Made by a program: the position numbers and the translations under genes. A stretch of DNA of 64,000 nt from Oscillatoria salina IIICB1 (GTDB lineage Bacteria; Cyanobacteriota; Cyanobacteriia; Cyanobacteriales; SIO1D9): positions 1-64,000 of the forward strand of contig NZ_JAAHBQ010000038.1 in assembly GCF_020144665.1 (NCBI RefSeq), given 5' to 3'. The stretch's first letter is position 1. Each line of letters starts with the position of its first letter. Below, in pieces: positions 13,801 through 53,744 of the stretch. The notes beneath the pieces are model-generated. The model was not told the origin of the DNA, did not search any database, and saw nothing but the letters and a program-made list of their open reading frames with translations.

Positions 13801-16800
13801 CTGACGGAGTTTCAGAAATTGAAATTACTAATGCTCTTAAACACCACAATCAGGAAATTGATATTTACAACAATAGTTGGGGATTAGGATTTTTTGATAT
13901 TTTGCCCGGTACTGAATTTATCTTCGATCGAGTGATAGATATTGGGAGAAATGGACTAGGTAATATCTATGTGTTTGCGGGAGGAAATGGAGGTAATCTA
14001 GACGGTTTAGAAAATCGTGGTAATGTTAACTATAACAGTCATGCCAACTCTCGTCACACGATCGCTGTTGCCGCGATCGACCGTCAAGGTCGTCAAGCTG
14101 TTTATAGCGAAAGAGGAGCGCCACTCTTAGTTTCTGCTTATTCTCAAGGAAAAAAAGGCGACATCGGTATTACCACAACTCACTTAAATCAAGAAGGTTA
14201 TACTGACGATTTTGGAGGTACTTCCGCATCTGCACCCCAGGTTTCGGGTATAGTTGCACTGATGTTGTCAGCTAATCCCCAACTGAGTTGGCGAGATGTG
14301 CAGCATATATTGGTAGAAACTGCACAGAAAAACGATCCACAAGACGAAGAATGGCAGCAAAATGGAGCCGGACGCTGGATCAATCATAAATATGGTTTTG
14401 GTGCAGTGGATGCAGCCGCCGCAGTGGAATTAGCCCAAAATTGGCAACCTATTCGTCAGGAAGTTTCGATTAATGAATATATGCCAGTAGGTGAACACAT
14501 ACCCGCCGCTCCCGAAAATGAGGAGGATAATCTTCAGCCAATAACTTCAACAATTGAGATTGAAAACTCAGAAGAAAATTTGATGGTTGAATGGGTAGAA
14601 GTTGTTTTTAATAGCAATCATCGCTATTTAGGTGAGTTAGAAATTGTCCTCGAACATACTTACACTAACTCGGAGGGAGAAACGATAACTACCGAATCTA
14701 TTTTGGCTGAACCACACTTAAATAACGAAAAATATGGAGGAGACAAGCATAACGAATATCTTTGGACATTCACTTCTGCGCGTCACTGGGGCGAATCTTC
14801 CGAAGGCGAATGGTCGTTGCGAGTAACGGATACTATTTATCGTAATGATACTGAAAATAGAGATCATGCTCGCCGAAAATTTAATTATTGGACTGATTGG
14901 AAGCTGAATATTTACGGTACGACAGAAAACACTCCTCCAGAAATAGATTCTATTGCGACAATGGCTGTTGCTACTGAAAATGAACCTTTTACCATTACTT
15001 ACGCTGATTTATTAGCTGCTTCTGATGCTACTGATGCAGATGGAGATGCGATTGTTTTCCAAATAGAAGAGACAATTTCTGGTACTTTGCTCAAAAATGG
15101 TAATCCGGTTGACGCTGGAGAAACTACTCTAGCTGAAGGTGAAGAAATTGTGTGGATACCTGATACGGCTGGAGACGCAATTGAAGCTTTCACCGTTAAA
15201 GCTTTTGATGGAATTAATTACTCGCTCGATACAGCTACTACCTTTATCGAGACAATTTCCAAATCAAATATTTGGAATTATACGATCGATCCTACCTACG
15301 ATAGTATTGCTGGTGATGGCAACGGTAATCTTGATGTTGGTGAGACAATTTATGAAATTTACGGGATGGGAATGAGTGAAGATGAGGATAGTGTTTGGGT
15401 AGCGATTAATACTAATTTGCCAATTACGGGAAGAGAAACCGGACCCATACTTAATGATTTTACAATTAGCAATGGTAATATCGGTTGGGGCGATTTATTC
15501 TTTGATTTCTCTGGGTTAGGAGATTTCCAACAAGCTAACGGTGAATTATTTGGAATTCGCTTTGCTGGTACTAATGATTCTCAAGTAGGTAGTACCGGAG
15601 TTTATAGTAACGTTACAGCAGTTAGTGTGGTTCCCGATAACGCAGGTTGGTCAAATTTCTGGAATCATAATGCTAAAGTTCAAGAAGTCACTGAACAACC
15701 AGCAATGCACGGGGAATTAGCTTGGAATGATGATTATTATCGTGCTTTTAGTAGCGAACAAGGTTCTTGGGATCGACCAGAAAGTTTAGTTCCTAATATA
15801 ATTCAATCCGGAACAAAAATAGGCGATATTGAGTTGTTAGACTCTTTCCAATTAACCGAAGCTGGTTTCAATTTGAGTCAATTACCAGCAACAGGTAATC
15901 TTACATTTGGCTTTAAGTTTGACAAATCTTTGTTACCTGGAGGCGAATTTATTGCAACCTTAATTAGTGAATGTAATAATGACGCGATCGCATTCCAGGG
16001 AGAAATGAGTATTCCTACTAATCGCTGGAATGCTAGTTTCCTCAACATCGATGATAATCTTCAAGATCCTCTCACCTATGACTTTAGCAACCCAGTTGCA
16101 ACTCTCGATCTTGGAGAACAAGGAGAAAATGGCAAAATTGAGCTTGTTAACGACTGGGGGATAGCTAGTCCCGATCCTGCGGTTCAAAATGATTATTTTG
16201 CGATGGATGCTTGGACTCGCACCAATTTTGAGGCTGACAAACTCTACAAAATTACGACTAAATCCGATGACGGTACGTGGTTTAGGTTACAGAATACCGA
16301 GACAGGGGAATGGATTGATAATTTAGTCGATGGTAACGATGGTGGAGATTGGATTCCAGAGAAATTTGGCGATCGCACAATTCTCTTCAAGGTTCCTGAA
16401 TCTGGTGAGTACGATTTCCACCTTCTCTATCACGAACAAGCTGGTAATGCGAAAGTCGATTTCAATCTCGAAGAAGTAACTTTCTTCACCGAACCAGTTG
16501 AAGAAAGGGAAGAATGGACAGCTAACTTTTTCTGGTTCGATCGTCAGTTAGGAAATACACCCCCAGCAGATTTTCAAGCAACTTTAGGAGGAATAACTGA
16601 TGAAATTGGCGTAGTAAATCTGGGTGCTAATACTCGTAGTGATTCTTACGAAGGCATTTATTTCGATTGGCAAACCAATTCTCCTAACAACGATTTGCGT
16701 CTCCCAGATAACAACTTTATTATTGATGCTTCAACTGATGCTTATTTCCAAGCTGGAAGAATCTATAAAACTCAGGTACAAGGTGATGATGGTTTCCAAT

Positions 16801-17684
16801 TACTTGCTCAAAATCAAGATAGCAAGGAATGGGTTTATATTACTCCGGAAAAACAATGGCAACAAGCTTATGGAGATGCGGAATTTATTCAGTTTACTGT
16901 ACCGGAAAGTGGCTGGTATGATTTCCACTTCTACTATTACGAAGAACGGGGTAATGCTATCTTTGACTTAGCTTGGAAACCAGAAGACTTTAGTGGGAAT
17001 GTAATTGCTACCGATGGCGCTAATGTACGTCCCGATCCTAGCACTGAAAACCCACCAGTTGCTACCTTAAATTATGGCACAAGTTTATCTTTCGATAATT
17101 TGATAGAAGGTGAGTTTGTTGACTATACCGGAGATCCACAAATAGGAATAGCAAGCTCAATTTGGTATCGTATTGAAGGAACAGATAACTGGATTTCATC
17201 AACACTTATTGGCGAAACTTCCAGACAACCAAGTGGAGTTGTAACTGCAACTGTTAATCGAGTAAAAAGCATAGATGACTTTGATGGTGGAAGTAATCTT
17301 CCTGATTTCTTTTCCGAACTAACTATTAATGGCGATCTTTGGACAAGTCTTGTGGAAAGAAACGAAGACGATATTAGTCTTAATTGGCAGTCGGAGCAAG
17401 AGGTAGCCAAGATAACTGACAATAAAGTTCCAATTACAATTAAAATCAAGGAGGAAGATGTGATTGATATAGGTATTGAGGAATTTACTATCAATACAGA
17501 TGTTGATATTAACCCGGCTTCTGGTATTAAGGAGATTAACCTCAACTTAGACTTATTAACGGGTGAAATTAGCGGTTCTGGAATTAACGCGATCGCCGGA
17601 GAACAAATTCATCTTATCGGTGCGGGGGATAGCGATCGCGCTGAGATTTGGTTCACTATCGACTGGAAACCTAACTTTAGTTGA
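10836..17684 (+). CDS. giant multidomain protein: PA14 repeats, subtilisin-like protease, P domains
   Basis: From ATG 10836 the product has about 2,282 residues; a TTG at 10707 would add 43 residues but lacks a ribosome binding site. Three PA14-like domains begin near residues 101, 250 and 399 (GLKAEYYNN, GLIAEYFDNSNF, GLQAEYFDNSDF), each with DDGVRLW/DDGVRLT motifs. An Ig-like segment and a pro-domain-like segment follow. The S8 catalytic residues are Asp792 (GVVDDG), His955 (HGTAVAGV) and Ser1130 (GGTSASAP). A proprotein-convertase P-like domain lies between Asp and His, and a second P-like domain follows the protease. Later come a cadherin-like segment and two more PA14-like domains near residues 1730 and 1893. 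No signal peptide is evident, so type I or another non-Sec export is possible. It probably acts at the cell surface or outside the cell. Confidence 0.85.
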   Translation: MEEPQHFLQESTNYLGNNLDNTLLSNSFPHQPLEPNSNSIGSTETYSLSEHNLESLQVEDNSTNPLFPQKQIEIYSPTNEIYRNDYLLGNSEGVNTKTITNGLKAEYYNNIDFTDPVLTRIDETVNFNWRKKSPDRAIESDTFSVRWTGQIEAPTTENYTFYLTSDDGVRLWINDRLIINNWTDHAPTENSGSIQLEAGEKYDIRLDYYENQGGAVNRLSWSSPSTEKEIIPTERLFSSLAEPIAPGEGAGLIAEYFDNSNFSNPVLTRTDETIDFNWKYGSPDDKIKTDTFSVRWKGKIQPRYDETYTFYTNSDDGVRLWVNGELLIDNWTVHPTTEDHSKITLEAGKLYDLKLEYYEHQGGSNIQLLWSSASQIKEIIPTSQLYPIVPEPPERGKGTGLQAEYFDNSDFTDLALTRIDPTVDFDWGLDSPDETIERQTYSVRWTGKVQPLYSDYYTFSTFADDGVRLTVNGELLINDWTIHPTQENNGEIWLEAGRLYDLELEYYENWGRSDVQLLWSSELQDREIIPTSQLYPVGPGSLSDSLLLLAYEIYNPQEEVEFFAKIFDTDGVSDLAAVDLWLQKDFTEWIELEDVTEFSPDSNNPNATRFTYDLPELEPGRYQLFATVYNQANQPQETLIETFTVLSLPEEVELSDRVKVAIERSANLDNYDPEALAATTEWVVSVQSGLSATELATSFSASNLGETGHIPNTYIWEFPSDIDPFAIADKLASVAGVEFAYPLVEFPVNWNAPMNEPYVANQRQWHLYNAKVTDAWQNHQVTGKDVIIGVVDDGFGIEDPQQNLYNHWDFDNYRPDLSYDFDEEDEYPSPILKNTINFKNVADSLLDIESNILDFSPSFLSGFIQDLTLNIDIQHNAVGDLEFYLVSPLLQGEINPKEFQVRNIGNEQLSLQINEFNGRKADGIWQLKVIDNQPGDDRSGIIEHLSLDFTTINLHGTAVAGVAAANGNNNRGGSGVAPDAQFAGIRMGADGVSEIEITNALKHHNQEIDIYNNSWGLGFFDILPGTEFIFDRVIDIGRNGLGNIYVFAGGNGGNLDGLENRGNVNYNSHANSRHTIAVAAIDRQGRQAVYSERGAPLLVSAYSQGKKGDIGITTTHLNQEGYTDDFGGTSASAPQVSGIVALMLSANPQLSWRDVQHILVETAQKNDPQDEEWQQNGAGRWINHKYGFGAVDAAAAVELAQNWQPIRQEVSINEYMPVGEHIPAAPENEEDNLQPITSTIEIENSEENLMVEWVEVVFNSNHRYLGELEIVLEHTYTNSEGETITTESILAEPHLNNEKYGGDKHNEYLWTFTSARHWGESSEGEWSLRVTDTIYRNDTENRDHARRKFNYWTDWKLNIYGTTENTPPEIDSIATMAVATENEPFTITYADLLAASDATDADGDAIVFQIEETISGTLLKNGNPVDAGETTLAEGEEIVWIPDTAGDAIEAFTVKAFDGINYSLDTATTFIETISKSNIWNYTIDPTYDSIAGDGNGNLDVGETIYEIYGMGMSEDEDSVWVAINTNLPITGRETGPILNDFTISNGNIGWGDLFFDFSGLGDFQQANGELFGIRFAGTNDSQVGSTGVYSNVTAVSVVPDNAGWSNFWNHNAKVQEVTEQPAMHGELAWNDDYYRAFSSEQGSWDRPESLVPNIIQSGTKIGDIELLDSFQLTEAGFNLSQLPATGNLTFGFKFDKSLLPGGEFIATLISECNNDAIAFQGEMSIPTNRWNASFLNIDDNLQDPLTYDFSNPVATLDLGEQGENGKIELVNDWGIASPDPAVQNDYFAMDAWTRTNFEADKLYKITTKSDDGTWFRLQNTETGEWIDNLVDGNDGGDWIPEKFGDRTILFKVPESGEYDFHLLYHEQAGNAKVDFNLEEVTFFTEPVEEREEWTANFFWFDRQLGNTPPADFQATLGGITDEIGVVNLGANTRSDSYEGIYFDWQTNSPNNDLRLPDNNFIIDASTDAYFQAGRIYKTQVQGDDGFQLLAQNQDSKEWVYITPEKQWQQAYGDAEFIQFTVPESGWYDFHFYYYEERGNAIFDLAWKPEDFSGNVIATDGANVRPDPSTENPPVATLNYGTSLSFDNLIEGEFVDYTGDPQIGIASSIWYRIEGTDNWISSTLIGETSRQPSGVVTATVNRVKSIDDFDGGSNLPDFFSELTINGDLWTSLVERNEDDISLNWQSEQEVAKITDNKVPITIKIKEEDVIDIGIEEFTINTDVDINPASGIKEINLNLDLLTGEISGSGINAIAGEQIHLIGAGDSDRAEIWFTIDWKPNFS

Positions 17685-19199: not shown

Positions 19200-22100
19200 A
19201 TGAAATGGATAAATAAGAAGTGCTTTTTGTTACCATTTGCTTTATTTTTACTTCCAGAAGTAGTAACAGCGCAAATTGTTCCAGATAATACTCTCCCAAA
19301 TAATTCAATTGTCACTCCCAATGGTAACACAATTACGATTGACGGCGGGACAGAATTAAATAGTAATTTATTTCACAGTTTTACTCAATTCTCGCTGCCC
19401 ACTAATGTCGAAACTTTCTTCAATAATTCGCCACAAATTAGCAATATTTTCAGTCGAATAACAGGTGCATCAATTTCTGAAATTGACGGAATTATATCTG
19501 CTAATGGCACAGCAAATCTCTTTTTAATCAACCCCAATGGAATTATATTCGGTCCCAATGCTCAACTTAATTTAGGTGGTTCTTTCTTGGCTACAACTGC
19601 TGAAAGTGTCGTTTTTGCTGATGGAACAGAATTTAGCGCGACTAATCCTAATAGTTCGGTTCAACTAACAATTAGTGTCCCAATTGGACTACAATTTGGA
19701 CAAACACCAGGTAATATTGTTAATCAATCTCAAGCTACTTTATTAATACCACAACCACCCAGTCCTATTCCACAATCGCCCATAGAAAGACCCGTCGGTT
19801 TGCAAGTTGCTCCGGAAAAAACTTTAGCACTAATTGGCGGTAATGTTATTATGCCAGGAGGTATTCTAACTGCTTTTGGTGGCGATACTGCACTGGGAGG
19901 ACGAGTAGAAATTGGTAGTGTTAATAATGAAGGTTTTGTCAGTTTAACACCAGTAGTAGATGGTTGGGAATTAGGTTACGAAGCAGTAGAAACATTTGGC
20001 AATATCGATCTTTTTGCACGTAGTGTAATTTTTGCAGGTGGTGCTGGTGGCGGCAATATTAGTTTGCATGGTGGAAATATTAATGTTAGCCAAGGTTCCC
20101 GACTAATTTTAAATACTTTAGGGGATATTAACGGTGGCGATATTATCGTTAATGCTACTGACTCAGTACAACTAATAGGCGGCGATCCTAATCGACTGAC
20201 AGGTTTGAGTATGGAAACTCGCGGCACAGGTGCAAGCGGGAATTTAACCATAAATACCACAAGATTGATAATGGAAGAGGGAGCGCAAGCATCTACTGCT
20301 ACTTTTAGTACAGGTAATGGTGGAAATATAATTGTTAATGCTTCTGAATTAGTTCAGCTTAGTGGTATAGAAATATCCGGTGAGCCTGGTGGCATCTTAT
20401 CAGGAACAGTTGGTTTAGCAAAAGGCGGTGATATTAGCGTAAATAGCGATCGCTTAATTGTTGAAAATGAAGCTGGATTATCAACTTTAACCGATCCTAG
20501 CAGATTAGTCGATGGACAAAATATAACATTTGACTCTATTGTTGATAATTTTACAGAATATAATCAACCCGCAGGCAATTTAACAATAGAAACAAGAGAA
20601 CTAATCGTCCGCGAACAAGCGCAAATCCAAACTTCTACTTTCGGTGCTGGTGATGCAGGTAATTTATTAATTCAGGCTAAAGATTTTGTAGAAGTAATTA
20701 ATGGTGGGATTTTTGCTCAGGTTGAGTTTGTCGAATTAGATGGGGAACTTTTACAAGCAACAGGAGAAAGTGGAGATTTAACTGTTGAAACCTCAAGATT
20801 AAGATTATTAGAGGGAGGACAAATTACAACTTCTACTTTTGGTGTAGGAAATGCGGGAAATTTATCTATTTTTGCTACAGAATTAATTGAAGCAATAGGT
20901 GGAGAAGAAAATCCAAGCGGTTTATTTACACAAGTTAATACTGCAATATCTAAAGATGAACGCGAATTTGCTACTACCGGAAATGGAGGTAATCTCATTA
21001 TCGAAACTCTGAATTTAAGAGTTTTATCAGGAGCGCAAATTTCCGTCGGTACTGATAGCATTGGTTCAGGAGGAAATGCTAATATTACAGCAGACACGGT
21101 TGAAATAACTGGATTTTTCCCTACTGTTCCAGAAGCAGATTTTAGTGCTATTACTGCGGTTACGGTAGGAGAGGGAGAGGCAGGAAATTTAACAATAAAT
21201 TCTGAGCAGGTTAGGGTACAGGATGGAGGGCAAATTACAACTTCGACTCGCGGTACAGGAAATAGCGGAACTTTATTTATTAATGCAACAGAGTTTGTCG
21301 AGGTTAGCGGTATTGGGATTGCACCTAATCTTACTTTACCCAGTAGGATTTCTGCTCGCACTGAAGGTGTAGGAAATGCAGGTGAAATAACTATTGATAC
21401 TCCAAAACTTTTGTTAGAAAATGGAGGTGAAATTGCTGCTTCTACTACAATTCCAGAAGATACTAACTTTGAAAATACAGTCTTTGGAGATGGCGGACGT
21501 TTACTAATTAATGCTAGTAATTTTGTTGAAGTAACTGGTATTAATGAAACTTTCCCTAGCCGGATTTCTACTCGTACTACGACAAACGGCGATGCAGGCG
21601 ATTTAACTATTAATAGTCCAAGGATTTCTGTAGCAGATGGAGGTGAAATTTCTGCCTTTACTACTAATGCAGGCAATGGAGGAATTTTATCTATCTTTGC
21701 AGAAGATTTGCTTGAAGTAACGGGAAGAAATAGTAGTATTTCTGCTAGTTCGGATGGTAGTGGTGATGCAGGTAATTTACTAATCAATTCCCAAAAAACA
21801 AATGTTTTTAATGGAGGAGAAATCTCGGCTTCTACTAGCAATACTGGTGATGCAGGGAGGTTATCTATTGACACTTCTCAGTTAACCGTGAATGGCTTTA
21901 ATAGCAGCGTATCTACTCGGACTACAGGTGCAGGAAATGCCGGAAATGTAACTATTGATTCACTTCAGGTACAGGTGGAGTCTGGAGGTGAAATTAGTGC
22001 TACCACTTTGAGTGAGGGAAATGGCGGTAGTTTGTCGATTGATGCGGAAGATTTAGTGGAAGTAACGGGAATAAATAGTATAGTTTCTGTTAGTTCAGAA

Positions 22101-24596
22101 GGGAGGGGTAAGGCGGGAGAATTAACTATTAATAGTGAAATAGTTGGGGTACGAGAAGCAGGTGAGATTACTGCTTCTACTACTAATTCTGGAGATGGGG
22201 GAAATTTATTTATCAACGCGGAAGAATTGACAATTAATGGCAGAGATAGTAATATTTCTGCTAGTTCTAGTGGTAGTGGTAATGCGGGTGATTTGAGGTT
22301 ATCAGGATCTCGCATTTCACTCACTAACGAAGCACAAGTGAATGTCAGTGGCGAAGGTTCCGGTGCGGCTGGTAATATATCTATTAATGCACCAAATCTT
22401 ACCCTGGATAGAGGTGCGAGTCTCCGGGCTGAAACTCGCGCTGGTGAAGGTAATATTGAAATTAACTCTGACGATCTCCGTTTGCTTCGTAATAGCAGCA
22501 TTATTAGTGATGCACAGGGTACGGCAATTGGCGGTAATATTACTATTACTACTCAGACTTTAACTGCAATTGAAAATAGCGATATTTCTGCAAATGCTGA
22601 AGAAAGTTTTGGCGGTCGGGTGATAATTAATGCAGAGGGAATTTTTGGGACGGAATTCCGCGAAGCACAAACTATTGCTAGCGATATTACTGCTACTTCG
22701 GAATTGGGACCTCAATTTAGCGGTATTGTCGAAATTAATACACCCGAAATCGATCCTACTTCTGGTTTAGTTGAATTAGAAGATGAAATTGTCGATATTG
22801 CTAGTTTAATTGACCAAAATATTTGTCGCGTAAGTGAAGGTAGTCAATTAATAATTCCTGGTAGTGGTGGTTTACCTCCTTCTCCGAATCAACTTATCGA
22901 ACCCACAAATATTTTTGATGATTTGGGGGATGATGAAACGAAACAATTAAATAACCGAGAAATCGTTCCAGCCCAAGGATGGTTAATTAATTCTGAGGGT
23001 AAAATTGAATTAACTGCTCGTCCGATCGAAATAGCTTCTAATAATTGCCAAAACTTGACAAAAAGCAACTTTTCTGATTCGGAAATGATTGTCTCTCAAA
23101 ATTCAATTCCCGACTCAATTACTGTAGCTCGGTTTCAGTTTGAAGGCAATAGTGTTTTCAGCGACGAAGAGTTAGCAAATGTTACGGAAGAATTTCTGAA
23201 TCGGCGACTAAGCTTAGGAGAATTACAAGCAGTAAGTTCGGCGATTACCGAATTATACGTCAATAACAAATATATTACTTCTGGTGCTTATATTAAACCA
23301 CAAACTATTGAAAATGGAGTAGTTGTAGTCCAAGTTTTAGAAGGAAAATTAACTGAAATAAAGGTCAAAACCGACGGAAGATTAAACTCGAATTATATCA
23401 GCAGTCGAATCAGACGCACTACAGGAGGCTTAGTTAATCAAGAGCAACTTTTAGAAGGCTTACAATTGTTAGTTTTGGATGAGTTGATTGAAGAAGTAAA
23501 AGCAGAATTATTACCAGATGTCCAGCCGGGAACGAATGTTTTAGAAATCGAGATTAAAGAAGCAAACCCTTGGGATTTAAACGTAGTAGCAAATAACGGG
23601 CGATCGCCAGCCGTGGGAAGTTTCCGAAGAGGGGGGGGATTGAGTTATAATAACTTGTTAGGAATCGGCGATCGCGTCGCACTCAGCTACGGAAACACTG
23701 ATGGTAGCGATGAATTCCAAGCTAGTTATACTGTACCTTTAAATGGTCGTAACTCAACCCTATCTTTTCGCTACGCAGAAAGCAGTAATCGAGTAATTGA
23801 AGAACCTTTCAATCAAGTAGACATTGCCGCAGACTCTCGCAGTTACGAACTGAGTTATCGCGATCCAATTATTCTCACACCGCGCCAAGAATTAGCTTTA
23901 GGACTAACTTTTTCCCGTCAGGAAAGTCAAAGTTCAATTTTAGGTGTAGATTTCCCTCTTTCCCCAGGTGCGAATGCAAACGGAGAAACCAAAATTTCAG
24001 CGTTGCGCTTTTTTCAAGTATGGACAAAACAAGGAGAAAATAATATCATAGGTTTGCGATCGGAGTTCAATTTCGGTGTAGATTGGTTCGGTGCTACTGA
24101 GAATAATGATGCGCCAGATAGTAACTTTTTTGCTTGGCGAGGACAAGCCCAGTGGGTAAGGCAACTAGGCAATGAAAATACTATATTATTAACACGAGGA
24201 AATGTCCAATTAGCTGCCCAAGAATTGCTAGGATTAGAAAGATTTGGTTTAGGTGGTTTAGGAAGTGTGCGTGGTTATCGCCAAGATGCTTTACTAACAG
24301 ATAATGGTGCATTTGGTTCGTTAGAAATTTGGCTACCTGTAGGTATAATTCCCGAAAATTGGGGAGTTTTGCAACTGACACCTTTTCTGGATATGGGTGC
24401 AGCTTGGAATAGCAACAGCGATGTTAATATTGATAACAATTTTTTAGTTTCCACCGGAATAGGTTTACAATTGCGACTGAGAAATAACTTGACACTACGC
24501 CTAGACTACGGTATTCCTTTAGTGGATATCGATTCCAGAGACAGAACGTGGCAAGAAAACGGTTTGTATTTCTCAGTTACCTCAAGTCCTTTCTGA
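19200..24596 (+). CDS. fused TpsA-TpsB: haemagglutinin-type exoprotein with its own FhaC/ShlB-like transporter
   Basis: One uninterrupted frame encodes 1,798 residues. After a signal peptide (residues 1-24, ending VVTAQ) comes a TPS/haemagglutination-activity domain (about 25-165; NPNGIIFGPNAQLNLGGSFLAT). Some 1,000 residues of beta-helix repeats follow, built on GNAGNLTIN and GGQITTST-like units. From about residue 1307 the sequence changes to a POTRA domain (ITVARFQFEGNSVFSDEEL). It ends in an FhaC/ShlB-type barrel (NPWDLNVVANNGRSP to the C-terminal Phe). In ordinary two-partner secretion these are two proteins. Here the exoprotein and its outer-membrane transporter are one chain. The CHAT gene downstream overlaps its 3' end by 49 bases. 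Confidence 0.88.
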   Translation: MKWINKKCFLLPFALFLLPEVVTAQIVPDNTLPNNSIVTPNGNTITIDGGTELNSNLFHSFTQFSLPTNVETFFNNSPQISNIFSRITGASISEIDGIISANGTANLFLINPNGIIFGPNAQLNLGGSFLATTAESVVFADGTEFSATNPNSSVQLTISVPIGLQFGQTPGNIVNQSQATLLIPQPPSPIPQSPIERPVGLQVAPEKTLALIGGNVIMPGGILTAFGGDTALGGRVEIGSVNNEGFVSLTPVVDGWELGYEAVETFGNIDLFARSVIFAGGAGGGNISLHGGNINVSQGSRLILNTLGDINGGDIIVNATDSVQLIGGDPNRLTGLSMETRGTGASGNLTINTTRLIMEEGAQASTATFSTGNGGNIIVNASELVQLSGIEISGEPGGILSGTVGLAKGGDISVNSDRLIVENEAGLSTLTDPSRLVDGQNITFDSIVDNFTEYNQPAGNLTIETRELIVREQAQIQTSTFGAGDAGNLLIQAKDFVEVINGGIFAQVEFVELDGELLQATGESGDLTVETSRLRLLEGGQITTSTFGVGNAGNLSIFATELIEAIGGEENPSGLFTQVNTAISKDEREFATTGNGGNLIIETLNLRVLSGAQISVGTDSIGSGGNANITADTVEITGFFPTVPEADFSAITAVTVGEGEAGNLTINSEQVRVQDGGQITTSTRGTGNSGTLFINATEFVEVSGIGIAPNLTLPSRISARTEGVGNAGEITIDTPKLLLENGGEIAASTTIPEDTNFENTVFGDGGRLLINASNFVEVTGINETFPSRISTRTTTNGDAGDLTINSPRISVADGGEISAFTTNAGNGGILSIFAEDLLEVTGRNSSISASSDGSGDAGNLLINSQKTNVFNGGEISASTSNTGDAGRLSIDTSQLTVNGFNSSVSTRTTGAGNAGNVTIDSLQVQVESGGEISATTLSEGNGGSLSIDAEDLVEVTGINSIVSVSSEGRGKAGELTINSEIVGVREAGEITASTTNSGDGGNLFINAEELTINGRDSNISASSSGSGNAGDLRLSGSRISLTNEAQVNVSGEGSGAAGNISINAPNLTLDRGASLRAETRAGEGNIEINSDDLRLLRNSSIISDAQGTAIGGNITITTQTLTAIENSDISANAEESFGGRVIINAEGIFGTEFREAQTIASDITATSELGPQFSGIVEINTPEIDPTSGLVELEDEIVDIASLIDQNICRVSEGSQLIIPGSGGLPPSPNQLIEPTNIFDDLGDDETKQLNNREIVPAQGWLINSEGKIELTARPIEIASNNCQNLTKSNFSDSEMIVSQNSIPDSITVARFQFEGNSVFSDEELANVTEEFLNRRLSLGELQAVSSAITELYVNNKYITSGAYIKPQTIENGVVVVQVLEGKLTEIKVKTDGRLNSNYISSRIRRTTGGLVNQEQLLEGLQLLVLDELIEEVKAELLPDVQPGTNVLEIEIKEANPWDLNVVANNGRSPAVGSFRRGGGLSYNNLLGIGDRVALSYGNTDGSDEFQASYTVPLNGRNSTLSFRYAESSNRVIEEPFNQVDIAADSRSYELSYRDPIILTPRQELALGLTFSRQESQSSILGVDFPLSPGANANGETKISALRFFQVWTKQGENNIIGLRSEFNFGVDWFGATENNDAPDSNFFAWRGQAQWVRQLGNENTILLTRGNVQLAAQELLGLERFGLGGLGSVRGYRQDALLTDNGAFGSLEIWLPVGIIPENWGVLQLTPFLDMGAAWNSNSDVNIDNNFLVSTGIGLQLRLRNNLTLRLDYGIPLVDIDSRDRTWQENGLYFSVTSSPF

Positions 24597-27427
24597 GACA
24601 AAGTTTCAGCTTAGTTTTGGTAGCTATTCTGGGGTTTAGTTTCAGCCTCAGCCTACATAATTTGCAACCGCTACAGGCAACTCCACCAACGTCTGTCTCA
24701 AGCAGCCTGTGTCATTCCCAAGCGCAAGCAACTAACTTAATCCAATTAGGTAAACAAAGCTATCAAATGGGGCGTTTTGCCGATGCTGTGAATTGTTGGC
24801 AACAGGCGCTAACAGCATATTCTGACGATTTTGTCAAGCAAGCACAGATATCCAGTCAATTGTCCTTAGCGTATCAGCAAATGGGGCAATGGAAAGAAGC
24901 AGAAGAGGCGATCGGGTCTATTCTTCCTCTACTTGACAGCTTACCAGAACGAACTCGCGCCCAAGTATTAAACACCCAAGGACGTTTATTATTAGCAACA
25001 GGAAAAGCCGGAGAAGCCTTTGAAACTTGGCAAGAAGCCGAAAAATTATATGAAGAAAGCGATAACCAAAAAGGCGTAATTGGCAGCCAAATTAATCAAG
25101 TGACAGCCTTGCAAACATTAGGGCGATATCGTCAAGCTTTAAAGCAGCTAAAAAATTTGCAAGAAACACTCGAAACTCAACCAGATAATCTCCTCAAAGC
25201 ACGAGCATATCTAAGTTTAGGAAACGCTTTGCAAGCAATAGGGGATTTAGAAAATTCTTACTGTAGTTTAGAAAAAAGTTTGGCAATTACTCAAACAAAA
25301 ATTTTACCATCTTATCAAACTCTTCAAGGAAAAGTTCTTCTCAGCTTAGGTAATACCGCTCAAGCCCTTGGCAAAAAATTGCAACAAGATCGAGGAAATC
25401 TAAGCGAGGGTAATTTTCAAAATATAACTAAAAAGCTTGAATTAGTAGAAAACTGTCAAACTAATGAGCCATCTTTATCTTTATCGGGAAACTCAATTTT
25501 GAAGTCTTATCAAGAAGCTGAGAGACTTTATCGCCAACTAATCAAGCAAACATCTACGGATATTACTACTAAAATTCAGGCACAAATTAATTTATTAATT
25601 TTATATTCAGTAATAGATAAATACTTACAAGCAACTAATAGAACCTCAGATGATATTCGGCAATCAATCATTGAATTATTACCTCAAATAAAAGATAATT
25701 TTCAGTATTTACCAATTAACAGAAATTCAATCTTCTCCCAAATTAATTTTAGCCAAACTACGATTCAACTTAAAAAAAACAAGCCTTACCTAGCTGATAG
25801 TGAGCTTATTTCCTGGGATGAAATAGAAAATATTTTGACAAAAGCGAATGAAGATGCTGTAATTCTTCAAGACCAATATGCAGAAGCTTATACTTTGGGG
25901 TATCTTGGTATGCTGTATGTGAAACTTGACAAGTTAGAACAAGCCAGAGAATTTACAGAAAAAGCTTTAATCAAAGCTGAAGCTATTCAGGCTTTAGAAA
26001 TCATTTATCAGTGGCAAGCACAGCTAGGAAACATAGCTAAAATTAAGTCTCCAAGAGATAATAATAAAGCAATTAAATATTATAGTGCCGCCGTCGAAAC
26101 ACTGAACAAATTGCGCGAACAAAATTTAGTTGGCATTGACTTCGATTTGGAAAATTTTAATGCTAACTTACAATTTTATTTTCGGGAAAATGTTGAACCA
26201 ATTTATCGAGAATTAATTAATTTACTGTTACCATTTCAAGAGAATGTTAGTCAAGAAAGACTTAAAGAAGCTCTTTGGGTAATGGACTCACTGCAATTAG
26301 CTGAAATTGAAAACTTTATTGAATGTCAAGTACAACCAGTAGCCAATAAGTTAGAAATAGAAGAACTAGAAGAAGTTTTCAGTAAGTTTGATGCGACTAA
26401 TGCGGCGCTGATTTATCCAATTATTTTGGGTGAGAGAATAGAAGTTATTATTTACCTACCTCAGCAAGGTATTTTAAGGTATTCTCATTTAATAAATAAA
26501 GAAAAAGCTGAAGAGACAATTGAACAATTACGCAAGAATTTGTTTGATAAAACTCAACCTAATCCAGAAACCTATATCTTACCTAATGCTCAAAAGATTT
26601 ATCAATGGTTGCTAGCAGATGCGGAAGAAGAAATAGCCAAAAGTCAAATCAAAACTTTAGTATTTGTCTTAGAAGATTCTTTGCGAAATATACCAATTGC
26701 TGCTCTCCATGATAGTGGGCAATATCTAATCCAGAAAGGGTACGGAATAGTATTACTTCCTAGTTTAAGACTGTTAGAAACTGACCCTTTAGAGCGAAAC
26801 GAATTAACTGCTTTAGCTGCCGGATTAACTGAACCGCGTAACGGTTTTTCTCCATTACCTTATGTGGAAAATGAATTAAGCGGAATTAAAGAGGTTTTAA
26901 AAGATACCGAGCAACCCTTACTCAATCAAGAATTTACTGAGAAAAATCTCCATAATCAACTGAAAAACTCTTCTCAGGCTATAGTTCATTTAGCTACTCA
27001 TGGAAAGTTTCACTCTAACCCAGAAGAAACATTTATTTTAACTGGCAATAATAAAATCAAGGTAAAAGAATTAGATGAATTTCTCAGAAGTCAAACTCGC
27101 ACTAGAAAAGAAAAAATTGAACTATTTGTTCTCAGTGCTTGTGAAACTGCTCAAGGTAATAAACGAGCAGCTTTGGGACTTGCTGGAGTAGCTGTTAAAA
27201 CAGGAGCAAAAACTACTTTGGCAACGCTGTGGCAAGTTGCCGATGAATCTACAGCTATGTTAATGATTGAGTTCTATAAAAAGTTAGTTAGTGAAGAGGA
27301 GGTAAGTATTGCAGAAGCACTCCGCAGCGTTCAGCAAATTTGGTTAGAAAATGAGAATAAGGATGGCAATGATTGGTCACATCCTTATTATTGGTCTCCA
27401 TTTGTTTTAGTCGGTAACTGGCAATAA
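24548..27427 (+). CDS. exported TPR-CHAT protein (caspase-like)
   Basis: The 959-residue product begins at a GTG inside the end of the TPS gene, so translation is probably coupled. An export signal is seen at about residues 15-43 (LRQSFSLVLVAILGFSFSLSL). TPR-like repeats span about 60-500 (NLIQLGKQSYQMGRFADAVNCWQQAL and later copies). The C-terminal CHAT domain starts near 640. Its predicted catalytic dyad is His818 (VHLATHGKFH) and Cys865 (LFVLSACETAQG), and the domain ends with the HPYYWSPFVLVGNW signature. CHAT domains are caspase-fold proteases. The position suggests it processes or regulates the overlapping exoprotein, but that is inference. Confidence 0.9.
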   Translation: MARKRFVFLSYLKSFLRQSFSLVLVAILGFSFSLSLHNLQPLQATPPTSVSSSLCHSQAQATNLIQLGKQSYQMGRFADAVNCWQQALTAYSDDFVKQAQISSQLSLAYQQMGQWKEAEEAIGSILPLLDSLPERTRAQVLNTQGRLLLATGKAGEAFETWQEAEKLYEESDNQKGVIGSQINQVTALQTLGRYRQALKQLKNLQETLETQPDNLLKARAYLSLGNALQAIGDLENSYCSLEKSLAITQTKILPSYQTLQGKVLLSLGNTAQALGKKLQQDRGNLSEGNFQNITKKLELVENCQTNEPSLSLSGNSILKSYQEAERLYRQLIKQTSTDITTKIQAQINLLILYSVIDKYLQATNRTSDDIRQSIIELLPQIKDNFQYLPINRNSIFSQINFSQTTIQLKKNKPYLADSELISWDEIENILTKANEDAVILQDQYAEAYTLGYLGMLYVKLDKLEQAREFTEKALIKAEAIQALEIIYQWQAQLGNIAKIKSPRDNNKAIKYYSAAVETLNKLREQNLVGIDFDLENFNANLQFYFRENVEPIYRELINLLLPFQENVSQERLKEALWVMDSLQLAEIENFIECQVQPVANKLEIEELEEVFSKFDATNAALIYPIILGERIEVIIYLPQQGILRYSHLINKEKAEETIEQLRKNLFDKTQPNPETYILPNAQKIYQWLLADAEEEIAKSQIKTLVFVLEDSLRNIPIAALHDSGQYLIQKGYGIVLLPSLRLLETDPLERNELTALAAGLTEPRNGFSPLPYVENELSGIKEVLKDTEQPLLNQEFTEKNLHNQLKNSSQAIVHLATHGKFHSNPEETFILTGNNKIKVKELDEFLRSQTRTRKEKIELFVLSACETAQGNKRAALGLAGVAVKTGAKTTLATLWQVADESTAMLMIEFYKKLVSEEEVSIAEALRSVQQIWLENENKDGNDWSHPYYWSPFVLVGNWQ

Positions 27428-27442
27428 ATTTGGGTTGATAGT

Positions 27443-28093
27443 TTACTGAGGTTTAAATCTAACAGTAACTTTGTCTTCAATTGGGTCTGAACTACCGATC
27501 GCCTCAACTTTAACAGTATAAGCAAATTCAGTTTGTAAAGACTCTTCTTCTTGAGGATAATCAAGCTGAATTTGAGAAGCATCTACTTGTTGTACTTGTC
27601 TTTGCCAGTTAACACCAGGTCCTTCGATGCTAACGATGTAGGCGATCGCGCCATCTACTCGCTCCCACCTTATTGGCGGTCGCGGATTTTCTGTCTCGCC
27701 GATAGGACTAACAATCACTTCTCCAGAGCGAATGATAACATCGTTGTTTGATAATACGGTACGACATAAAGGAGTAATACTCTTAAATTGCCGAGAAATA
27801 ATTTCTCTTTCTCTAGAATCTTGGTTGCAGTAAATTCTAACTTCTCCTGATAATCGTTGTACTCTATCCCTGTGACAAAGCCTTTCACCGTCAGCAATAT
27901 TGCGAACTGATTCGTTATAGCGATCGAGTAAAGCTTGACCACCTGGGGAAATTTCGATCCTCGCTACTGGATCGCAACTTTCACCTTTTGTTTGTGCTGC
28001 TACCTGCCGAAGTTGCAGTTTACCGAGAGTTACCCAATTTCCGGTAACTAAAGTTAAACATAAAACTACTGAAATTGATACTCTAGTTTTCAT
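27443..28093 (-). CDS. exported hypothetical protein with Fn3-like C-terminus
   Basis: I start the gene at ATG 28093 (MKTRVSISVVLCLTLVTG), which begins a signal peptide and overlaps the stop of the preceding CHAT gene as ATGA, a sign of translational coupling. The 216-residue product has three or four Cys in the middle part (CDPVARIEIS, ERLCHRD, IYCNQDS, TPLCRTV). A C-terminal beta-rich segment resembles a fibronectin type III fold (PPIRWERVDGAIAYIVSIEGPGVNW...FAYTVKVEAIG). The function is unknown. It is the last gene of the sigma-like/DUF1822/CHAT operon and converges on the exported CHAT gene with 15 bases between stops. Confidence 0.7.
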   Translation of the reverse strand: MKTRVSISVVLCLTLVTGNWVTLGKLQLRQVAAQTKGESCDPVARIEISPGGQALLDRYNESVRNIADGERLCHRDRVQRLSGEVRIYCNQDSREREIISRQFKSITPLCRTVLSNNDVIIRSGEVIVSPIGETENPRPPIRWERVDGAIAYIVSIEGPGVNWQRQVQQVDASQIQLDYPQEEESLQTEFAYTVKVEAIGSSDPIEDKVTVRFKPQ

Positions 28094-29961
28094 CGCCGAT
28101 TGTCTACCGTTTCTAATCGTTCTTCTGCTGTTTGAAGCCATGATTTTTCCTCTGGAGATTTCGGATCTGTAAGTCGTCTACATAGATCCCAATTATCGAG
28201 TTCTTTTTGGTATTTTTTTTGCGCTTTTTTTACTTGTGCTAGTAAACAGTAAGGAGAACCTTCCTCTTCTTCTTTCATCAAAGACTTTGCTTTTTCTAAA
28301 TAAGGTTCTGCTTCTTCATATTTTTCTTGTTCTACTAACGACCAGCCTAAATTTTTATATGCAACAAATTTTATTTCATCATTGTCAGCACGCGATTCTA
28401 CTATACGAATAATTATATTTTCTGCTTTTTGAGGATCTCCATACAAAATCTCCCAACGAGCTAAGTTATTGCAACCTTCAATTAAGCCACCTTCACAAGC
28501 TATATTGTATTTCTCGCCAGCTTTGTATGGTTGATTCATATCTTCGTCATATCTTCCTTTATTGCTATTAGCTTTTGAGTGTTTTGGATTAAGTTTTAGG
28601 GCTTGATTAAACTCCTGTACGGCAAGCTCTTTTTTATCCAATTGATAATATCTGACACCACGACGATTGTGAATATCAGCCCTTAAATTGTTAAAAGTAA
28701 AAATCAGCTTTTGAAAAGTAGATGGCAAAATTAGTCCCAATAACAAAAATCCTACTATGGCTAGTTGATACTGTTTTATGTAACTTGGTAAACCGTGGTT
28801 GGTACTTTCATTAACATCAATTTCTTTACACTCTTGATAAATGTTACCATTATCATTATTTGTTAAGTCATCTTTTTTCTCAGTTTGATTCGCAATCACA
28901 TGACCTAAAAATGACCTCCAGGTGGGCATTTCTGTAGCGGGGTTGTGGCAAATTAGTGGTAGCATACTGGCACAGAAATATTTATCTTCTATTTCGCGCA
29001 ATCTTTCTCTGGCTTCGCGGACTGAGGCGGATAAGGTTTTATCTTTAATGGCGAAGGCTTTGAGAAAATATTCGAGGAATCTTTGGGCGACGATATCTAG
29101 AACTGGTTCTCGCATGACGATGGTTGCTGGAAGCTGTAATTCCATTAATTCTCTACCTAGTCCGATGCCGTCGCAGGAGTTGAAAATAGCGAGTTGTAAG
29201 CCGTTTTTAATCGCGTTTTCTAGACCGTGTTTGAGTTCTTCGATGGTTAGTTTTTCTTGGGGATTAATTTGAAATTCTCCAGGGATTTCCCCTCCTTCGC
29301 TAAAACTATGTCCGGCAAAAAAGAGGATATCCCATTCTTGTTCCCAAAGTTCCTTTCTCACTTCTGTTTTGCGTGGTTGTAGCAGTGACTGAATGTAAGC
29401 GTGGGGAAGTTCCTTTTGCAGTAAAAGCAAATCTGATTTGACATCAATATTAGTGCTATCTCCCAGAATGACTAAGATTTTTACTTCGTCTTTGGGTTTA
29501 ATCTTTCTTACTTGGGGAAGTTTTTCGTATTGGGAAGCACTGAGAATCACTTCTATTTTCTTGTCGTCTAAAACGTCCCAGAGATGCCAAGGAATGCGCC
29601 AAAACCAAACATCATCTGTTTGCATAATAATCTCTTTTTGCTCGTTTTGGTGACTCAATGCTATGATTTTATCTCGCAGAGGACGAAATTCTGGTTCGGC
29701 TGAGTTTAGCCAGGTGTTGATACTATCTTTTAAGTCACTATTGGAATAGTTAGTTACTTGCACCGGGATGGGTTTTATCGTACGAAAACGATGAGTTCCC
29801 GGACGAGTATGATAATTTAACTGCCAAGTTTTGTAATCTTGGGGGAGGTTGGGTGCTGCGGGTAAAGTTCCTTCTATTTCGAGATTTTCTCCTTGACGTA
29901 AAATAATCGGAAAACCTTGTTCAAAATCACCGCTAACTACTTTTATGGCTAATTTATTCAT
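28090..29961 (-). CDS. CHAT-domain protein with transmembrane helix and TPRs
   Basis: In this 623-residue protein the CHAT domain is N-terminal. The predicted dyad is His218 (ILFFAGHSFSEGG) and Cys263 (LAIFNSCDGIGLG). A segment near 345-390 links it to a single membrane helix (YQLAIVGFLLLGLILPSTF, about residue 400). TPR-like repeats follow (VQEFNQALKLNPKHSKANSNKG, NLGWSLVEQEKYEEAEPYLEKAKSL). The domain order is the reverse of the exported CHAT protein across the convergent junction. The topology suggests a membrane-anchored cytosolic protease with TPRs on the other side, although no signal peptide is present. It is 29 bases downstream of the DUF1822 gene. Confidence 0.88.
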   Translation of the reverse strand: MNKLAIKVVSGDFEQGFPIILRQGENLEIEGTLPAAPNLPQDYKTWQLNYHTRPGTHRFRTIKPIPVQVTNYSNSDLKDSINTWLNSAEPEFRPLRDKIIALSHQNEQKEIIMQTDDVWFWRIPWHLWDVLDDKKIEVILSASQYEKLPQVRKIKPKDEVKILVILGDSTNIDVKSDLLLLQKELPHAYIQSLLQPRKTEVRKELWEQEWDILFFAGHSFSEGGEIPGEFQINPQEKLTIEELKHGLENAIKNGLQLAIFNSCDGIGLGRELMELQLPATIVMREPVLDIVAQRFLEYFLKAFAIKDKTLSASVREARERLREIEDKYFCASMLPLICHNPATEMPTWRSFLGHVIANQTEKKDDLTNNDNGNIYQECKEIDVNESTNHGLPSYIKQYQLAIVGFLLLGLILPSTFQKLIFTFNNLRADIHNRRGVRYYQLDKKELAVQEFNQALKLNPKHSKANSNKGRYDEDMNQPYKAGEKYNIACEGGLIEGCNNLARWEILYGDPQKAENIIIRIVESRADNDEIKFVAYKNLGWSLVEQEKYEEAEPYLEKAKSLMKEEEEGSPYCLLAQVKKAQKKYQKELDNWDLCRRLTDPKSPEEKSWLQTAEERLETVDNRR

Positions 29962-29990
29962 CAGTGCTTCCTCGTCACTATTTTGAGAAA

Positions 29991-31427
29991 TTATAAGTTA
30001 AACTCTTGGCTAAAGCTAGTTTCTCCTAAGATTAGTTTAACAATGAAACGATCGCCAGGTTCGCCGCTAAGTTCTAGTTGCATCCAGTTATCCTGTTCTC
30101 TGGATTCGGTTTTTAATAAGGCTTCTTTTTTTTCGTTTAGTAGAGACATTTCTAAATTGGGTGGTAGGTGAGTTTTTCCTGTGGGACGAACTTGCAAATG
30201 AACGTTAGTTTCTTGGCTATTTTCAGGTACGATAGTAACTATTAAGGCTACATGACTCTCACCAAATTGCATTCCTAGGTCAATTATTTTTCCCCGTCTG
30301 ACACCAGCTAATTTATGATTTGGGTCAATTTTACCTAAACTTACGGCTGCTTGACGACGCAGTTCGCGATCGCTGCTACTATCGACTAGATTAGTTAGCG
30401 CAAATATTGCTTCTTGACTCCCTATTCCTATACGACCTAATAAATCTGCAATTTGCAATTTTGTCAATTTATCTCGACTATTTTCTAATAGTTCAATCAA
30501 TGTCGGAACGGCTTTTAAGGTTGCCTCTTGTCGAAAGTTAGTTACACCAACTAACTCTATGGCTAAATTAGTTTCTTGCATCTGGAATGTTTCAATTATT
30601 TCCTCTACTGTTTGCCAACCAGTTTCAAATTGAGCTTTGAACCAGTTTCGTAAGTTAATTGCTTTGTGCATTAATTCTTCTTTTTCGGCTTTTCTTAAGC
30701 GTAGTTTATACAACTCATGTCGCCATGTTTCATTAGCAAGTAAGGCTCCCCATTTGACAAAATCTACTTGTAGTCGTGGTATTTCCACTTCTGGTTCGCT
30801 CAAGCGATCTAATAAAGATTCTACTTGATTTAAACTGGGTAACTCCGCGACGGATAATTTTCTACTCGCAACAATTTTTCTGGCTACAAATAACATTGTC
30901 AGATCTTCGATTAGTTCTTCTTTAGCCAGTGAATAATACCGTAAGCTAGGATTATAAACTGCTTTTTTCTTCAGTTCTCGATGGGTGGTATATCCCAAAA
31001 TTTGCATCCAAGAATCTTCTTCGTCTGCTTCTAAATTCAGTTGGACTGCTAGGTAATAATCTGCTTCCCATCCGGGAATATCAATCCATTCTTGGGGAAT
31101 ACAAAAAGTTGAAAAATCGTCAGTTTCAAAAGGTATTAAGACTATTTTTGTTTCTCCCCATTGGATTGCACTACCCGTTACTAATTCCCAACAAGTTGGT
31201 AAGTTGACTTCTGGAAGCCACGATTTTACTTGTTCGCCTAATTCCTGAAACCAACTAATAATTGTATCTAAACAAAGGCGATTGCAATAACCATTCCAGA
31301 GTGCAGCATTATTCGAGTAAAAACTATGCTCTAGCCAAGCTGTGTCTATAGTTTTGTCAGTTACTGTTAAAAAGATTTTTTCTGATTGATTTATTTTAAG
31401 TTCGTTAGTATTAGTCATTTGGAACAC
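29991..31427 (-). CDS. DUF1822 family protein with HEAT-like repeats
   Basis: The N-terminal 220 residues match DUF1822 as I recall it (WNGYCNRLCLDTIISWFQE, FCIPQEWIDIPGWEADYYLAVQLNLEADEEDSWMQILGYTTHRELK). Residues about 300-370 contain HEAT-like helices (TKLQIADLLGRIGIGSQEAIFALTNLV and RELRRQAAVSLGKIDPNH). The C-terminal 110 residues are a beta-rich module (IIDLGMQFGESHVALIVTIVPE). In cyanobacteria DUF1822 genes are often next to sigma-like and CHAT genes, as here. The function is not known. A start at Met4 (31418) is also possible. Only 4 bases separate it from the sigma-like gene. Confidence 0.8.
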   Translation of the reverse strand: MFQMTNTNELKINQSEKIFLTVTDKTIDTAWLEHSFYSNNAALWNGYCNRLCLDTIISWFQELGEQVKSWLPEVNLPTCWELVTGSAIQWGETKIVLIPFETDDFSTFCIPQEWIDIPGWEADYYLAVQLNLEADEEDSWMQILGYTTHRELKKKAVYNPSLRYYSLAKEELIEDLTMLFVARKIVASRKLSVAELPSLNQVESLLDRLSEPEVEIPRLQVDFVKWGALLANETWRHELYKLRLRKAEKEELMHKAINLRNWFKAQFETGWQTVEEIIETFQMQETNLAIELVGVTNFRQEATLKAVPTLIELLENSRDKLTKLQIADLLGRIGIGSQEAIFALTNLVDSSSDRELRRQAAVSLGKIDPNHKLAGVRRGKIIDLGMQFGESHVALIVTIVPENSQETNVHLQVRPTGKTHLPPNLEMSLLNEKKEALLKTESREQDNWMQLELSGEPGDRFIVKLILGETSFSQEFNL

Positions 31428-31431
31428 TCCT

Positions 31432-32853
31432 TCACTGAGTTAATTTTTTACATTCGACAGTTTCTTTAGCCCAATTTGTAACTACTAAATTCACTTTTTG
31501 GTCTATTTTTATCAACTTAGGTTCTAAATCAAGATCGATCTTGAAATTTGAAACGAACCACTTATTTAGCTCAAACCGCAATATTTGCTCGAATTTTTCT
31601 CTGGTTTTGGTATCTGGATCTACCGTGATGAGAATTGTACTATATAGCCAGTAATTGCAGATTTCTTTTAACAAATTGTCAATTTCTTTTTTCAAGTACT
31701 TTTTATTGTTTTTGAGAAATTCTTGAAAGTAAGGCTGTTTTTCTAATTGCTCTTCTCCTTCACTTAAATCTAAGTTTTCTCTGAGGGCTTCTGGTATGGA
31801 TACAACAATTTTTAGGATAATTTTGAGCCGAAAGTTATCTAAGAAACGGCTAATAGTTGATTGGTCAATTGGTAGTTGATTGGCGGTGAGTAAGTTAGCC
31901 GTCAATTGCTGCTTGAGATTTAAACCGTAGTTAAGCAGGAAGATTGTCCAGTGAGGAATCTTGGCTTTGCCGATGGTAGCTCTAGGATTAGTTTGAAAGG
32001 CATCGGCTTCGACTTTTCTTAATTCGCTTTCAAGCACAGACAAAACTTTTTCCTGCTCTTGTTTGGCGACAAAAATTTCTACTTCTACATTGGTTTGTTC
32101 GTCCACAGCTCGATCGATTGGTTTTGTTTTAGTTAGGTAGAGGCTTTCTTCAGTTTGAGAACAATTAAAAGAGATAGTGGTAATTAGGTTGGTTTTGCCA
32201 ATTTCTTGGTCTATCCATTTACTTATATTACGCTGACAAATTATTTTTATGTACTCTTTGGTAGAAATTTTTGGTTGAAAATTGTGTAAGTCTTTGGCAA
32301 TTCGCTCTAAATTGTGAAAGGTTTCTCCTCCATGCTGAAAAAAATCTTCCCAATCCCAGATAGGTAAGGTTTCCCATTGGTGAATGTTGCTATAAAAATA
32401 GCGACAAGATTTTCTGGTTGTCCAAAAGCAAACTTCTTGATAATAAGCCCAAAGATGTTTTCTGGCTATTTCTCTTTCTGGGGTAAATTTCGCTGAATCT
32501 CGCACGATTCCCAGGAAGTAAACTAGCCAAGCTTTTTCATCGCGATCGGGATATAATTTAAGTAAGGTTTTGAAGTTTTTTTCTAGTTCATAATCAGTTA
32601 CCCATAGAGACATTTGACGAAGATTTAAGGGCGAAAACATTAAGAAATTTGAAAATTTGTCGATAATGTTTTTGCGGCGTGATGGCGGAGAGGGAATTTG
32701 ATTTTCGATGCCAAAATTATACATTCTCAATTGCTCCTGAAGCGATCGCCAATTTTGATTTAGTCTCGGTAATGTCCCTGCGACTTGGTAAATGCTTTTC
32801 GTCTGAAATGTACGTGGTAGTTCAGTTTGACAGCGATTAACATTTGTTTTCAC
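31432..32853 (-). CDS. divergent sigma-70-like protein
   Basis: The 473-residue protein resembles the atypical sigma-70-like proteins found next to DUF1822 and CHAT genes in cyanobacteria. The region LWVTDYELEKNFKTLLKLYPDRDEKAWLVYFLGIV...HLWAYYQEVCFWTTRK corresponds to their conserved N-terminal block. Near residues 330-360 is a helix-turn-helix-like segment (LTANQLPIDQSTISRFLDNF) like a region-4 recognition helix. Classical core-binding region 2 motifs are poorly conserved, so it may not bind RNA polymerase in the usual way. As the first gene of a four-gene operon it may be the regulator. The call rests on remembered family resemblance and needs a profile search. Confidence 0.55.
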   Translation of the reverse strand: MKTNVNRCQTELPRTFQTKSIYQVAGTLPRLNQNWRSLQEQLRMYNFGIENQIPSPPSRRKNIIDKFSNFLMFSPLNLRQMSLWVTDYELEKNFKTLLKLYPDRDEKAWLVYFLGIVRDSAKFTPEREIARKHLWAYYQEVCFWTTRKSCRYFYSNIHQWETLPIWDWEDFFQHGGETFHNLERIAKDLHNFQPKISTKEYIKIICQRNISKWIDQEIGKTNLITTISFNCSQTEESLYLTKTKPIDRAVDEQTNVEVEIFVAKQEQEKVLSVLESELRKVEADAFQTNPRATIGKAKIPHWTIFLLNYGLNLKQQLTANLLTANQLPIDQSTISRFLDNFRLKIILKIVVSIPEALRENLDLSEGEEQLEKQPYFQEFLKNNKKYLKKEIDNLLKEICNYWLYSTILITVDPDTKTREKFEQILRFELNKWFVSNFKIDLDLEPKLIKIDQKVNLVVTNWAKETVECKKLTQ

Positions 32854-51875: not shown

Positions 51876-51932
51876 AATACCGTTTCACTTCAGGAGATGA
51901 TCTAAAAGTTAATTAAGGGAAAAATTTTCGCC

Positions 51933-53534: not shown

Positions 53535-53744
53535 ATTTGTCTACCTCAAACAATATTTTTCAACTAACAATTGTTGAGCATGAAGTTCCATTTGATTCTG
53601 TGTATCCTTTTCTTGCCATAGTTAGCTCCACTTCATGCCATTTTTCATTTTTCTGGATAACACAGTTCTCTTTTTTTCTACCTCTTGCTAAAGCTAAAAA
53701 GATTTTGTAGTGCCTTCCGGAGCGGAGCCTACACTTTTTCATAT
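53535..53744. other. spacer between NRPS and halogenase genes
   Basis: A 62-codon open frame on the minus strand (53560-53748) starts at TTG or at an ATG three codons in, and overlaps the NRPS stop. It encodes a basic peptide with no recognised family and is not MbtH-like. A GC-rich palindromic segment (TTCCGGAGCGGAGCC, near 53715) resembles dispersed cyanobacterial repeats. I do not call a gene. Confidence 0.4.

Follow-up and report, generated by a model that had tools for sequence, protein, structure and literature searches.

A conserved sigma factor, DUF1822 and CHAT-protease operon of Oscillatoria salina as a candidate switch between surface signals and promoters

The stretch of DNA considered here (the window) comprises the first 64,000 nucleotides of contig NZ_JAAHBQ010000038.1 of the cyanobacterium Oscillatoria salina IIICB1, and between positions 27443 and 32853 it carries an operon of four genes which encode, in order, a sigma-like protein, a DUF1822 protein, a CHAT protease with a transmembrane (TM) segment and TPR repeats (CHAT-TM-TPR), and an exported protein. 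We regard it as an evenly balanced proposition that this operon is a switch from surface signal to promoter, in which the CHAT protein cuts DUF1822 and so frees the sigma factor. In such a switch the sigma factor would be kept inactive by DUF1822, its dedicated partner; the CHAT protein would be a membrane receptor, with a caspase-type protease in its cytoplasmic N-terminal part; its C-terminal part, which is TPR in the window and CHASE2 in the majority of relatives, would sense an envelope signal, probably jointly with the exported product of the fourth gene (an Fn3-like protein here, DUF928 beside CHASE2 receptors); and the activated protease would cut DUF1822, releasing a sigma factor that would transcribe its own operon and probably also some envelope or secreted products. 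Sequence evidence supports the sigma identity, the sigma-DUF1822 partnership, an intact protease dyad and a matching of receptor types with fourth genes. The idea of a signalling chain, which the original prediction raised from a reading of the sequence, appears reasonable and better supported than that reading alone allowed, with cleavage as the step that we hypothesise.

The first gene (31432..32853, minus strand, 473 residues; its family is here called SIG) encodes, by its family profile and its model, a real, divergent sigma-70 relative with sigma domains 2 and 4. The protein matches the NCBIfam sigma70-ECF (extracytoplasmic function) model at E 4.9e-5, under the cut-off, and it matches no Pfam model, that of region 2 included. 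A search of the PDB with a profile of the family (102 members of at least 380 residues in the gathered loci) returned FliA as the best match (9e-10), with SigA and SigF at 3e-6 each; one member, from locus L091, scores 86 bits against the sigma70-ECF model, whose cut-off is 42.9 bits. The AlphaFold2 (AF2) model built for the window protein, with a mean predicted local distance difference test score (pLDDT) of 81, gave no significant match in Foldseek, and therefore the claim for its fold rests mainly on the profile matches. When the Foldseek candidates were re-aligned with VIA, the best 50 rows were all sigma factors or sigma-bound complexes, the best Z being 8.3, where a Z near 8 is on its own weak for a helical protein. 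The aligned span of the model, residues 50-220 and about 300-355, corresponds to sigma domains 2 and 4: region 2 would lie at 32194..32706 (minus strand, about residues 50-220, the range aligned with sigma-S, sigma-A and sigma-B), and the helix-turn-helix (HTH) of region 4 at 31822..31947 (minus strand, residues 303-344; local sigma-4 profile, c-E 1.9e-10). The family profile, the VIA alignment to both domains and the L091 score all bear out the sigma-70-like identity first proposed for this protein.

A sigma-4-like HTH is present in all 102 family members, and at least 41 of them carry a second one about 90 residues downstream (e.g. L091:7290-8948), a tandem region 4 arrangement that is unusual; the second HTH was not detected in the window protein. 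This protein might have ceased to be a sigma factor and now be a decoy, or a DNA-binding regulator derived from one, which would fit its sigma scores below cut-off, the missing Pfam region 2, the undetected second HTH and the lack of a promoter motif (discussed below) in its genome. However, sigma domains 2 and 4 are both still covered in the alignment of its model, its sigma-4 profile match is strong, and we consider such a loss of function very improbable. As a separate observation, the NCBIfam model of the type III-E CRISPR-associated sigma factor matches 10 of 58 sigma genes that precede DUF1822 (best E 5e-8), and common ancestry of these genes with CASP-sigma is possible on this similarity.

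The second gene (29991..31427, minus strand, 478 residues) follows after a gap of 4 bases and encodes a protein that matches PF08852 (DUF1822) at E 4e-74, over the cut-off, and has no TM segment. In its AF2 model (pLDDT 86.8), fold matches indicate HEAT-like repeats at residues 300-370, followed by a C-terminal Ig-like beta-sandwich (29994..30302, minus strand, residues 376-478). From the order to which the window belongs we gathered 60 DUF1822 loci, of which seven lie in the genome of the window itself (a genome with nine DUF1822 matches), and another 80 from across the cyanobacteria by means of six DUF1822 queries; 140 loci including the window were tallied, the same species possibly occurring in both sets, so that the counts are partly dependent. 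In 133 of the 140, the gene just before DUF1822 encodes a sigma factor, at a median gap of 15 nt. The reverse survey, which compared SIG and DUF1822 coordinates in 24 genomes and left out one weak HTH-only match, placed 24 of 25 SIG genes beside DUF1822 or fused to it; G017:C30:10831-12192 was the sole SIG gene there for which no DUF1822 match was found nearby.

The fused case (L257:1062-2978, minus strand) is a single open reading frame (ORF) of 638 residues made of a whole long SIG protein and the C-terminal part of DUF1822, which argues for a direct functional link between the two. Their length classes also pair: long SIG with long DUF1822 in 100 cases and short ECF with short DUF1822 in 25, as against seven mixed pairs. 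Because of this adjacency in both directions, the fusion and the length pairing, DUF1822 is almost certainly, as judged from gene organisation, the dedicated partner of the sigma factor, with CHAT as an added, exchangeable input; we take it to be a putative inhibitor. DUF1822 domains occur in other contexts too. At L262:611-3393 (minus strand) the gene after a short ECF gene encodes a GAF-GAF-DUF1822 protein, from which it appears that DUF1822 can carry its own small-molecule sensor, and in loci L258, L259 and L260 HTH or STAND (NB-ARC) NTPase proteins end in a DUF1822 C-terminal domain.

Turning to the protease, a CHAT gene follows DUF1822 in 97 of the 131 loci with enough sequence for this tally. 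The original prediction had named a lack of neighbourhood conservation as one finding that would refute it, and proposed a survey of DUF1822 genes; conservation was what we found (133/140 and 97/131), and since it extends across about 140 loci the operon is not a chance arrangement. Its tight packing, too, is confirmed by the ORF coordinates, with gaps of 4 and 29 bases and an overlap of 4. The place of CHAT directly after DUF1822 in most loci, and the common encoding of CHAT substrates beside their protease (PMC9729208), are at odds with another scheme, in which CHAT would cleave something else (the exported partner, the convergent TPR-CHAT protein, the two-partner-secretion exoprotein or itself) and DUF1822 would control the sigma factor by direct binding of a ligand or partner, with no proteolysis. 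That scheme gains from the sigma-DUF1822 units which exist without CHAT, and from the GAF-DUF1822 gene after an ECF gene, which suggests non-proteolytic sensing; overall we hold it to be decidedly unlikely.

The CHAT-TM-TPR gene (28090..29961, minus strand, 623 residues), 29 bases beyond the DUF1822 gene, encodes a protein that matches PF12770 (E 3e-14) and TPR models over the Pfam cut-offs. Its predicted catalytic residues, His218 (FAGHS; 29308..29310, minus strand) and Cys263 (NSCDG; 29173..29175, minus strand), are each conserved in 109 of 109 sequences, and hydropathy predicts one TM segment at residues 394-423 (28693..28782, minus strand). With the domain match, the dyad and this segment, the earlier suggestion of a membrane CHAT protease is sustained at the sequence level, and we regard the protein as a putative membrane receptor protease. 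Its relatives share a conserved N-terminal segment ahead of the CHAT domain, followed by C-termini of CHASE2 (the commonest receptor type in the set), periplasmic-binding protein, STAND, TPR, pentapeptide or WD40 type; within the set, the CHAT-TM-TPR type recurs in five relatives (L077, L084, L092, L094 and L105).

The fourth gene spans 27443..28141 (minus strand), its likely start being at 28093 (residue 17), just before the signal peptide; from this start it overlaps the CHAT gene by 4 bases, as against 52 from the first ATG. What accompanies the receptor in this position depends on the receptor type: DUF928 follows CHAT in 47 of 97 loci, and it stands after 46 of 63 CHASE2-type receptors as against none of 35 of other types (Fisher 5e-14, uncorrected for shared descent). 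While 12 of 18 fourth-position proteins match DUF928 (PF06051), the window protein does not. The label of exported Fn3-like protein given to it at the outset holds in its first part, by the signal peptide and a hydrophobic segment at residues 21-39, and lacks database support in its second, as the protein matches no Pfam family. Among the short exported proteins beside CHAT genes in the set, a W..V.G...Y Fn3-like pattern occurs only in the fourth genes of the window and of L084, both of which adjoin a CHAT-TM-TPR gene; the two proteins are weakly similar (E 0.016 as a single comparison), and for L084 the Pfam fn3 model gives no better than 0.09. Consequently the CHAT-TM-TPR and Fn3-like proteins may be read as a putative matched pair of receptor and exported partner.

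Beyond its fourth gene, the operon converges on a TPR-CHAT gene (24548..27427, plus strand; PF12770, E 3e-54), 15 bases away, which is preceded by a two-partner secretion (TPS) exoprotein gene fused to its ShlB transporter (19200..24596, plus strand; PF05860, POTRA_2 and ShlB in one ORF). Such convergence, already remarked in the first description, is a recurrent locus: a TPR-CHAT gene is convergent in 28 of the 97 CHAT-bearing loci, and TPS or ShlB genes lie nearby in 27. In the window the exoprotein and the ShlB/FhaC transporter form a single ORF of 1798 residues, and in several relatives they are two separate genes.

This linkage bears on a role in conflict or cell death, which Kaur et al. 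2021 (PMC8195603) proposed for such neighbourhoods in the passages that treat them. On that view CHAT would be the effector, killing or disabling the cell once invaders or damage are sensed; the sigma-DUF1822 pair would only adjust expression of the system, and DUF1822 would be an adaptor, not a CHAT substrate. The C-termini (STAND NTPases, WD40, pentapeptides, CHASE2) vary as much as those of conflict systems do, and the DUF1822 C-terminus is fused to NB-ARC NTPases, both of which would suit an effector role. Nevertheless, the commonest receptor, CHASE2 with an exported DUF928 partner, points to envelope sensing, the linkage to TPS/ShlB exoprotein genes is conserved, and sigma-DUF1822 pairs occur without CHAT. 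Moreover, PADLOC matched none of the four operon proteins, its only match being a generic TPR match in the neighbouring TPR-CHAT protein. We consider a conflict role rather unlikely.

What a freed sigma factor might read is suggested by a bipartite motif upstream of the SIG genes of many relatives, CATAA-N16-CCAATAA (spacing 16 in 17 of 18 exact cases), with the form TGCATAAA-N15-CC(A/G)ATAAG and, in loci L100 and L115, TGCATAAA-N15-CCAATAAG. A position weight matrix built from these sites scored at least 16 in 29 of 101 SIG upstream regions (the 29 including training sites) against 11 of 710 control genes; at a score of at least 20 it gave 34 matches over 2.3 Mb of loci, training sites included, against none in reversed sequence. 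An independent pattern search of 149 genomes of the order yielded 24 matches, mostly with CCGATAAG, against three in the control. The motif resembles the sigma-28 consensus, TAAAGTTT-n11-GCCGATAA (PMC2859248), and it is FliA that the family profile matches best in the PDB. Its presence ahead of the sigma gene suggests autoregulation in the relatives, and we infer that SIG itself reads it. It also stands upstream of genes for DUF928 (L155), CHAT (L212, L219), a TPS exoprotein (L209), an RTX-like protein (L211), peptide export (L143, L148) and small exported proteins. Separately, strong copies at L143:351 and at L148:346 and 14134 precede HlyD/ABC peptide-export genes by about 89 nt, and locus L109 has a copy upstream of a double-glycine-leader peptide gene.

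Several observations weigh against the proposed switch. Roughly one sigma-DUF1822 pair in four lacks an adjacent CHAT gene. Against the PDB, the DUF1822 profile and fold returned only unrelated Ig-like and HEAT-like matches, and no anti-sigma factor or Csx30, distant kinship being possible. Upstream of the window sigma gene the motif is missing (score 3.3), and the window's genome as a whole shows no clear enrichment (30 matches against 17 in the control, and 31 against 28); autoregulation in this organism is therefore only an analogy with its relatives. Among the other genes that bear the motif, enrichment for secreted proteins is not significant (9 of 27, p 0.18, by a crude test). Finally, support for the switch comes from sequence and models, with binding, inhibition and cleavage as predictions.

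More tentatively, and with less than even confidence, we suggest that these operons represent a large family of exchangeable membrane receptor-proteases of cyanobacteria. In each, a sensor outside the cytoplasm, either CHASE2 paired with DUF928 or TPR paired with an Fn3-like protein, would directly activate a cytoplasmic caspase-type domain. This domain would cut DUF1822, which would be a new class of anti-sigma factor, and so release a sigma factor that would read sigma-28-like promoters and that in many cases has region 4 in tandem. If true, this would be a one-protein route from surface signal to promoter via a caspase-like protease in environmental bacteria, without CRISPR, and it would give a function to three orphan families (DUF1822, DUF928 and the SIG sigma family), of which many filamentous cyanobacteria have several copies.

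Elsewhere in the window, 10707-17684 encodes a protein of 2325 residues with PA14 domains, a subtilase and a proprotein-convertase P domain, and 49458-63812 holds a hybrid nonribosomal peptide synthetase/polyketide synthase cluster with halogenase-like and penicillin-amidase-like genes. A CRISPR link, or membership of the locus in the CASP systems, was considered from the parallel with Craspase (below) and ruled out: no Cas domain, that of Cas7-11 included, was seen in the large window ORFs scanned, and no CRISPR-like repeat between 15000 and 36500.

In regulated proteolysis of the RseA/RsiW type the anti-sigma factor itself spans the membrane, and site-1 and site-2 proteases act. The window operon differs in that DUF1822 has no TM segment and the protease would itself be the receptor; the likeness is that an envelope signal would pass via a protease to a sigma factor (PMC10028731). 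A further likeness is to HetF, a CHAT-type cysteine protease that the consulted part of PMC8406250 presents as a divisome and heterocyst protein of filamentous cyanobacteria, and to which residues 183-265 of the window CHAT protein show a weak NCBIfam match.

The original prediction knew of no description of such a system. That does not stand, as the core sigma/DUF1822/caspase neighbourhood is already described: the relevant passages of Kaur et al. 2021, eLife (PMC8195603), report genes for an ECF sigma factor and for DUF1822 next to those for caspase-domain proteins which have a constant N-terminus and a variable C-terminus (CHASE2, repeats, STAND), and they suggest autopeptidase activation with transcriptional output. 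The adjoining of these three genes and the variable C-terminal sensor or effector module are shared between those EACC2-caspase neighbourhoods and the window family. In those neighbourhoods a constant alpha+beta domain, EACC2, lies N-terminal to the caspase domain, and the conserved segment ahead of CHAT in our family may be its counterpart. The treatment there is one paragraph, with no mechanism of sigma control, and the same passages are silent on DUF928, on the convergent TPR-CHAT/TPS locus, on the long sigma factor with tandem region 4, on a promoter motif and on a sigma-DUF1822 fusion.

An experimental pathway of CHAT protease, sigma inhibitor and sigma factor also exists, in the type III-E CASP/Craspase system (Cas7-11, Csx29, Csx30 and CASP-sigma), where Csx29, a TPR-CHAT protein, cuts Csx30 and frees CASP-sigma, which autoregulates its locus (PMC10028731). 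In both, a CHAT protease is encoded alongside a sigma factor and a partner of the latter, and the locus is autoregulated (for our family, as suggested in its relatives). The input, however, is RNA in the one and, as we propose, a membrane receptor in the other, DUF1822 is not detectably related to Csx30, and the window operon is not itself a CASP system because neither Cas7-11 nor a CRISPR repeat was seen. The operon can be placed as a variant among the systems of Kaur et al., one that most likely works in the manner of CASP.

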